NCBI GenBank assembly: GCA_903847315.1
Contig: CAINDG010000001.1
Location: 1-57,590 of the forward strand
DNA: 57,590 nucleotides
Origin: an uncultured Planctomycetota bacterium
GTDB lineage: Bacteria > Planctomycetota > Phycisphaerae > Sedimentisphaerales > UBA12454
Reading direction: 5' to 3'
Shown one piece after another: positions 30,921-33,028 of this stretch. Position numbers and translations under genes: made by a program. The notes beneath the pieces were generated by a model, which was not told where the DNA came from, searched no databases, and saw nothing but the letters and a program-made list of their open reading frames with translations. Each line of letters opens with the position of its first letter. Positions within the stretch are counted from its first letter, which is position 1.

Positions 30921-31601
30921 CTATTGCGGCTTTTGAATTTCGTTGGCATCTTTCCGGGCTTTTTCAAGATCCTCTATTCTCGCCTTTAGCTGCGCATTTT
31001 CATTGGTAAGAGATTCCACTTCTTCCTTAAGATTTGCCGGCATTTTGTCCATAAGAAATTTCGCCGTATCGCCTGCTTCGGCCTGATCTTTTTCTTTGTC
31101 CTGTTGGCATTGCTTAACTAATTTTTTCTGCTTATCTATCCTGTCCCGGCATATCGCAGGGTCATCTTTCGAGTCTATTTCTTTGAGGTACTGTTCAATC
31201 AATTGCTTCTGTTTTTCTATCTCTTTTTGGCATTTCGCAAGTTCATTTTTCAAATTAGTGACATTATCATTTACCTGAATTATTTGTGCTTTTTCCCACC
31301 GGCACTGCTCGAATAATACTCGCTGTTTTTCCGACTCGCCATAGTATCGCTCGGATAATTTCTTCTGGTCTTCAGCCAGTTTCCGCTGTTTTTCTGATTC
31401 GCTTCGGCACTTCTCAAGCAGCTTTTGCTGTTTTTCTATTTCGCCACGGCACTTTGCAAGTTCCCCCTGCAAATTTAGATTCTCACTGGCCATAAGTTTA
31501 TCTCTTCTGCTGACGCCGGCTGTCTTATCCTGCTGAGCCTGCTGACAACCCGATACAGCCAAAATCAGTAATACCAATAAAAATCCGCCCGTCTTTTTCA
31601 T
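30921..31601 (-). CDS. Coiled-coil lipoprotein with repeated heptad blocks
   Basis: This 226-residue protein has a signal peptide ending in lipobox AVSGC (Cys19). The mature part is almost all helix with repeats of a motif like ExEKQxxLxEQC: GEIEKQQKLLEKCR, SESEKQRKLAEDQ, GESEKQRVLFEQCR, KEIEKQKQLIEQY. Cysteines recur at regular places and might form disulfides. Such proteins span the periplasm or tether the outer membrane, as an inference. Its stop lies 6 bp from that of pyrG, convergent. No family is recognised. Confidence 0.75.
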   Translation of the reverse strand: MKKTGGFLLVLLILAVSGCQQAQQDKTAGVSRRDKLMASENLNLQGELAKCRGEIEKQQKLLEKCRSESEKQRKLAEDQKKLSERYYGESEKQRVLFEQCRWEKAQIIQVNDNVTNLKNELAKCQKEIEKQKQLIEQYLKEIDSKDDPAICRDRIDKQKKLVKQCQQDKEKDQAEAGDTAKFLMDKMPANLKEEVESLTNENAQLKARIEDLEKARKDANEIQKPQ

Positions 31602-31681: not shown

Positions 31682-31721
31682 AAAAAAACGGAAGATTCTA
31701 CCGTGGCGTCAGAATCTTCCG
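31682..31721 (-). terminator. Strong intrinsic terminator of the lysine-rich micro-gene
   Basis: On the minus strand CGGAAGATTCT pairs with AGAATCTTCCG, an 11-bp stem with an 11-nt loop, and seven T follow. No other minus-strand gene ends here, so it belongs to the transcript of the micro-ORF at 31828-31878. Confidence 0.88.
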
Positions 31722-31827
31722 CAGCCTTGTGAGCTGAAATCAAAATTTTGAGTTACGGCCCACAGTTCTGGAAGTCGCCGGTTAATTTTGCCGTAACATG
31801 AGAAAGTCCGACGACTATTTCACAGAA

Positions 31828-31878
31828 CTATTTCTTTTTCTTTTTTGCTACTTTCTTCTTTGCTTTTTTCTTTGCCAT
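31828..31878 (-). CDS. Lysine-rich 16-residue microprotein
   Basis: The reading frame encodes MAKKKAKKKVAKKKKK: 11 of 16 residues are lysine and none is acidic. It starts 8 nt after AGGAGGTGA, the best ribosome-binding site in the window. A promoter-like pair lies upstream and a strong terminator downstream, giving a transcript of about 235 nt. Between stop and terminator ~105 nt can fold: GTTACGGC pairs with GCCGTAAC, and AGTTCTG with CAGAACT. It resembles the basic tails of H1-like histones, so nucleic-acid binding is possible. An alternative is a structured RNA with an incidental or leader ORF. Confidence 0.6.
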   Translation of the reverse strand: MAKKKAKKKVAKKKKK

Positions 31879-31925
31879 TCTTAGTCACCTCCTTTCAATC
31901 GAAAAAGGTTAGAATGACAACATTC

Positions 31926-31953
31926 TTTTTACCTTATTACACGTATCTGTCAA
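31926..31953 (-). promoter_or_regulatory. Sigma-70-like promoter of the lysine-rich micro-gene
   Basis: Minus strand: a perfect TTGACA -35 box (31948-31953), a 16-bp spacer and TAAAAA as a weak -10 box (31926-31931). Start of transcription would be near 31919, ~40 nt before the micro-ORF. The next ~450 bp, up to nadD at 32405, are AT-rich and show no convincing gene. Confidence 0.5.
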
Positions 31954-32404
31954 ATTATTTTTCTCATAAGTATATCTATTTAACACATTTATCGACAATT
32001 ACCCATAAAATTCTTCACAATTTCCTGATACTCAAACGTTCTAATGGCAGTCACAACAATCTTTTCTCGAAAAAACATCGGCATAAAAAAACATTTCTCA
32101 GACAAATTTTATACCGTGAGAAATCCTGTCCGAACACACAAGAACCCTTGTTTTACGCGAAAAATTAAGGTTTTTCTTTCTCAAATAAGGATTTTAGAAA
32201 ACCTTCATACAACAACATACTTATCAGGTAGCGAAAATATTCAGAGAACAAAAATGAATACAAGATTTTTTTCTAAATTTTTTCAAAAAATCGTGTAAAA
32301 TCATATCAATGCGAAGTATTTCGCGTTGGAATCCGTAACTTTTTTTAAAACTATCAACAGTTTGTTTGTTAAATTTTATCAGGATAGTATATTCGTAATC
32401 TTTT

Positions 32405-33028
32405 ATGGCAGAAAAAATCATACTGTTCGGCGGAACATTCGACCCTGTACACACAGGTCATATAGAAGTTGCCCAGGCAGCAGCGGAAAAAATAGGCGCT
32501 AAAAAAGCCATTCTCATCCCCGCAAGACGCTCGCCGCACAAAAACCAAAAACCAGTCGCAATAGACATTGACCGAATAGCAATGCTGAAACTCGCCATCA
32601 AAGACAAAAACCTGTTCCAGATAAGCACTATCGAACTAAACAGGGCCGAACCCAGCTATACAATCGACACCATTCACCAGCTAAAGCAAAAATTTGGCGG
32701 CGATTGCGAACTCTACTGGCTAATTGGAGCCGATATGCTCAAGTCCCTGCCGCTATGGCACAAAGTAATCGAGCTAATGGACCAGTGCAACATAAGCGTA
32801 ATGAACCGCGGCGGATTCGATAAACCTGATTTCGACAGCCTAATTGCCAAATTCGACAAAGAAACTATCGAAAAACTGAAGAAAAATTCGATTGAAACAC
32901 CTTTGATTGATATTAGCAGCACCGAAATCCGCCGAAAACTGGCCGATGATGAAGATGCCGGCGAATTTTTGCACCCCGAAGTGCTGAAATATATCAAAGA
33001 CCGCAGACTCTATATGCCAAATGATTAG
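32405..33028 (+). CDS. nadD: Nicotinate-nucleotide adenylyltransferase
   Basis: This 207-residue enzyme joins NaMN and ATP to make NaAD in NAD synthesis. LFGGTFDPVHTGHIEVAQAA carries the GXFXPXHXGH nucleotidyltransferase site. LIGADMLKSLPLWHKV and ISSTEIRRKLADDEDAGEFL with the ISSTXIR motif follow, then a typical end at ILKYIKDRRLY-like sequence. Length is normal. It follows an AT-rich region and stands alone, convergent with the ASKHA gene. Confidence 0.93.
   Translation: MAEKIILFGGTFDPVHTGHIEVAQAAAEKIGAKKAILIPARRSPHKNQKPVAIDIDRIAMLKLAIKDKNLFQISTIELNRAEPSYTIDTIHQLKQKFGGDCELYWLIGADMLKSLPLWHKVIELMDQCNISVMNRGGFDKPDFDSLIAKFDKETIEKLKKNSIETPLIDISSTEIRRKLADDEDAGEFLHPEVLKYIKDRRLYMPND

Follow-up and report, generated by a model that had tools for sequence, protein, structure and literature searches.

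Does a very short, lysine-rich ORF on the minus strand of a Planctomycetota genome (order Sedimentisphaerales) constitute a gene of its own, and does it act through its peptide, its RNA or both? The original prediction placed a self-contained transcription unit in a 270-bp part of the window (the whole stretch of DNA analysed, 57,590 nucleotides). All of the parts it named are present on the minus strand and conserved in relatives (Table 1). Families within the order are labelled f1–f7, f1 being the window's family.

Table 1. Positions of the microprotein gene's parts and of its two neighbours in the window
Feature	Position	Strand	Details
nadD-like gene, divergent	32405..33028	+	Named from sequence
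Upstream element TGAAG-N16-GTCGATAA	31989..32017	−	Putative promoter or activator site
TTGACA box	31953-31948	−	−10 is a weak TAAAAA (31931-31926), spacing 16 nt; family-level promoter candidate, 31926..31953
5′ hairpin	31871..31920	−	Masks Shine-Dalgarno and AUG (window and four genomes of its genus)
Shine-Dalgarno, GAAAGGAGGTGA	31885..31896	−	AAAGGAGGTGA at 31895-31885, near-perfect
ORF MAKKKAKKKVAKKKKK	31828..31878 including stop	−	ATG 31878, TAG ends 31828; 16 aa, 11 Lys
Structured 3′ UTR, helices 1–4	31731..31828	−	RNAalifold and pair counts, 12 sequences
Terminator	31682..31721	−	11-bp stem CGGAAGATTCT/AGAATCTTCCG (31721-31711 / 31699-31689); loop GACGCCACGGT; T7 at 31688-31682
Coiled-coil lipoprotein gene	30921..31601	−	Next downstream; own promoter TTGACC-16-TATAAT, 31665-31638, 11/12

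By blastn, the unit is present in all other genomes searched from the same genus and the same family (E values 1e-92 to 1e-11); in most of the order, the ORF and terminator portions are matched. A Shine-Dalgarno plus MAKK..KKK pattern was found in 76 of 148 genomes of the order, compared with none for the reversed-pattern control; the pattern is strict, such that divergent members are missed, and in a few cases it picks up the histone gene. Beyond the order, the exact pattern seldom occurs in a phylum-wide sample, and a Shine-Dalgarno plus lysine ORF search of the window's own genome returned one copy, the unit described here. Because the unit is conserved by both measures, the evidence for it goes beyond chance. 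The Shine-Dalgarno had been singled out as the best in the window, and AAAGGAGGTGA is indeed the sole match there, even with one mismatch permitted, but the string alone is no proof, because about 0.9 chance matches are expected. The site is near-invariant in f1 and common across the order, the same sequence preceding most orthologues. The check in relatives that had been set beforehand thus found the ORF, ribosome site, terminator and 3′ hairpins all retained. A generic scanner listed neither the promoter nor the terminator of the unit, since the −10 is poor and the loop exceeds the scanner's limit. GC skew showed no turn at the locus.

Comparison of ten f1 ORFs revealed 22, 37 and 225 differences at codon positions 1, 2 and 3, respectively, corresponding to 202 synonymous and 37 non-synonymous codon differences, counts in which the ORF pairs are not independent. 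For the window ORF, 17% of random single changes would be synonymous (33% of transitions). The 21-residue peptides of loci L005 and L008 are identical, their ORFs differing at eight positions, all of them third positions, and the indels among orthologue ORFs comprise whole codons. The codon pattern, the L005/L008 pair and the whole-codon length changes together argue, from sequence, that the 16-residue peptide is made and is under selection at the protein level, bearing out the view of this ORF as a gene. Such genes are easily missed, as had been proposed: length cutoffs of gene callers would exclude ORFs of this size.

Orthologues range from 12 to 94 residues in f1 and from 19 to 149 residues elsewhere, and consist of (A/V/T)KKK repeats, which identifies the window's peptide, as judged by its sequence, as a reduced lysine-repeat protein, among the shortest members of an order-wide histone-H1-like family. 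The original prediction is refined in this respect, the 16-residue form being a short member of a family that extends to about 150 residues. A very small ribosome-associated, rRNA-binding protein like bTHX or eL41 would share the short length, highly basic composition, strong Shine-Dalgarno and free-standing unit; however, low-complexity repeat variation from 12 to 149 residues is unlike a fixed ribosomal component, and we regard this assignment as improbable. Length in the lysine-repeat family shifts through gain or loss of A/V/T-KKK units, as in Chlamydia Hc2 (HctB), where lysine-rich repeat units vary in number, and hence length varies (PMC2848022). Lysine-rich repeat units varying in number between relatives are likewise found here, and both Hc2 (PF07382) and the microprotein family are lysine/alanine-rich and of low complexity. 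They differ in size (165–237 residues for Hc2 versus 12–149) and in that the microprotein gene has its own upstream element and terminator hairpin. The 94- and 149-residue orthologues score 13.3 and 17.1 bits against the PF07382 profile, for which Pfam sets a cutoff of 40, so that neither reaches it. AlgP far exceeds the microprotein in length. It is an H1-like protein of Pseudomonas (PMC9239181), and is likened to the microprotein by kind, both being bacterial H1-like, intrinsically basic repeat proteins. The peptide thus most likely works like H1-type lysine-repeat proteins, a functional likeness that falls short of proven membership of a named family. We found no descriptions of such peptides in the literature consulted, which covered few subscription journals.

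Bacterial dimer histones are known from Planctomycetota (PMC11390915), and a histone-fold gene was identified in 55 of 59 genomes of the order, including the window's, most of them with an N-terminal lysine tail. The histone of the window's genome (G000) is encoded by a separate gene (L206, G000:C41:34248-34415); it has 64 residues, begins MAKKKGGK and matches PDB 9qt0 (E 1.5e-16) as well as 8cmp and 8fvx (both ~2e-4) by sequence. The microprotein occurs in the same genomes as these histones and shares their MAKKK start and tail composition, but it is the product of a separate gene and has no histone fold, the likeness of the 16-residue peptide being to tail composition only. Lysine tails in the order are therefore present both fused to histones and as free-standing genes. 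The N-terminal tails of the order's histones range from almost none (60–62-residue proteins) to about 50 residues (G033, L190/L212), and the histone ribosome site is often ATGGAGG, with an upstream ATG overlapping the histone Shine-Dalgarno (loci L176–L213). In Nitrospirota-type genomes, lysine-repeat tails are fused to a SWIB-like domain (L066, L087, L111, L116 and L169; Pfam SWIB E 6.5e-30 for L066).

On balance we favour a free-standing microprotein gene whose 16-residue product would be a nucleic-acid-coating polycation, in effect a detached histone-H1 tail beside the bacterial histone. In favour of this reading are the orthologues throughout the order, their nadD synteny, the codon-position bias, the longer forms built of AKKK-type repeats, the near-universal histone gene with its lysine tail, and the lysine tails joined to histone or SWIB domains elsewhere. 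The promoter region, near-perfect Shine-Dalgarno and strong terminator would yield a short mRNA of ~235 nt, from which the polycation would be translated, presumably in abundance. With 11 lysines in 16 residues, the peptide would bind DNA or RNA electrostatically and without sequence preference, in the manner supposed for H1-like bacterial proteins, and might co-operate with the cell's bacterial histone as a free H1 tail. Against this reading, the Hc2 profile scores lie under the cutoff, peptides of 12–16 residues may not be long enough to compact strongly, and a simple structural peptide has no need of the conserved terminator loop or of the f1 3′ UTR structures.

Alignment of f1 genomes shows TTGAC(A) and a subsequent G-TAAA/G at equal spacing in all. 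The upstream element lies just ahead of this f1-specific TTGACA box, and alignment of 29 distinct upstream regions, drawn from six families, shows its GWCGATAA portion with fixed internal spacing. The arrangement is TGAAG-N16-GWCGATAA, then 5 nt, then a TATAAT-like hexamer (TTAAAT at 31983-31978 in the window), mostly 70–140 nt ahead of the ATG. The full element occurs once in the window's genome, at the micro-gene. A search of 40 genomes gave 20 matches, 14 of them at the lysine micro-gene (including two newly found lysine-repeat genes, in G020 and G033), and the reversed control gave 10; of the other six matches, five fall within apparent coding frames and one lies ahead of a secreted-protein ORF. 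No regulon for the element was found in this search. Sharing of GWCGATAA with the histone gene was considered and rejected, one partial match (G000) aside. The original prediction, which named the TTGACA box, is refined here too: the order-wide upstream element is TGAAG-N16-GWCGATAA. This element may serve as the main promoter, to which f1 has added its TTGACA box.

The divergent upstream neighbour is nadD in 28 of 35 loci, and the downstream neighbour varies (the lipoprotein gene in f1, a parA-like gene in f4, others in f6). The ~500-nt gap toward nadD contains more short conserved AT-rich blocks (window 32150-32380), e.g. ACAAACAAACTGTTG. In f7, a lysA-like gene (diaminopimelate decarboxylase, by sequence) is next after the micro-gene in eight of ten loci (L038, L040, L048–L052 and L060). 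This f7 synteny, and an ORF of mostly lysine codons followed by a terminator, resemble a leader peptide that senses lysine and regulates the next gene by attenuation, just as leaders of the trp/his type comprise a very small ORF enriched in a single amino acid, then a terminator. A lysA leader was rejected on the ground that the downstream gene is not the same from family to family; in addition, the window's downstream gene has its own promoter, the neighbour whose linkage is conserved is the divergent nadD, and expansion of the protein by repeats to 149 residues does not fit such a leader. No conserved downstream biosynthetic gene lacking its own promoter was found, and lysine attenuation is very improbable indeed.

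The 246-nt RNA of the unit is predicted to fold with −73.3 kcal/mol (z −4.7). RNAalifold assigned 34 consensus pairs to the f1 3′ UTR and terminator, 97% of which are formed across the 12 sequences. Ten of the 34 pairs show two-sided changes, a count reached in none of 500 shuffles (slid controls 0–7), which is no strict probability as the sequences are related. Codons and RNA pairs, whose comparison was proposed at the outset, both show conservation. The nested 3′ inverted repeats and the 11-bp terminator with seven T are present as had been described, and the hairpins are conserved; regulation by the RNA is a step that we infer. The terminator stem covaries across f1, f4, f5 and f6 (GATTCT/AGAATC, GGTTCT/AGAACC, GATCCT/AGGATC and GACTCT/AGAGTC), while its loop keeps GCCACG, mostly as GCCACGGC, in the same four families. 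Of 59 genomes, 21 contain the terminator motif, each in a single copy apart from G007, which has two at contig edges; controls gave none. Its single occurrence in the window's genome is at the lysine micro-gene. Several f1 genomes have GCCACGGC in two loops of one RNA (hairpin 2 and the terminator) in the 3′ UTR alignment, suggestive of a repeated binding site.

The mRNA is structured and perhaps bifunctional, i.e. the peptide's message might also act in trans, as a small RNA or by binding a protein, via the GCCACG loop and the 3′ hairpins. The retained loop on a covarying stem, the two-sided changes in f1 and the repeated loop sequence are consistent with such a role, but the loop could be a structural cap, the families do not have similar 3′ UTRs outside the terminator, and the loop motif is missing from some f6/f7 terminators. 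Rfam gave no gathering match at the locus, the top sub-threshold hit being RAGATH-33 (19.1 bits, cutoff 120.4). We consider this second function rather unlikely. For a loop-to-segment pseudoknot in the f1 3′ UTR, the signal was suggestive without reaching significance (permutation p 0.07). Folding also gave strong signs of a possible Shine-Dalgarno/AUG thermometer, but in comparison with shuffled UTRs the greater occlusion of the AUG is confined to the window and four genomes of its genus.

Beyond the order, free-standing MAKKK(x)AKKK micro-ORFs with a Shine-Dalgarno are found, among the matches listed, in Rokubacteria, Eisenbacteria, Omnitrophota, several Patescibacteria, Elusimicrobia, Deltaproteobacteria, Acidobacteria, Verrucomicrobia and one Woesearchaeota MAG; binning of MAGs may have put single contigs in the wrong genome. 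Many of those listed are soon followed by a terminator-like hairpin. They may be homologous or convergent, 12 residues being too few to decide. Elusimicrobia locus L068 (307 onward) has a tandem array of at least three micro-ORFs of the MAKKKVAKKKVAKKRKR type, each with its own Shine-Dalgarno, and Rokubacteria L067, L100 and L126 have two tandem lysine micro-ORFs with their own purine-rich ribosome sites, then a GC-rich terminator-like hairpin. Polylysine micro-genes (10–30 residues, perfect Shine-Dalgarno, prompt terminator) might conceivably represent a widespread bacterial class missed by annotation, which in Sedimentisphaerales would supply free histone tails to act alongside a bacterial histone, together with an RNA having a second function via its terminator loop; we hold this broader proposal to be unlikely.

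The microprotein family shows that genes for about a dozen residues, nearly all of them lysine, are retained by protein-level selection, with conserved upstream and RNA elements of their own. Whether a charged tail made from a gene of its own can function in trans is directly testable in histone-bearing bacteria, and the conserved terminator loop suggests that terminators can also carry sequence-specific information.
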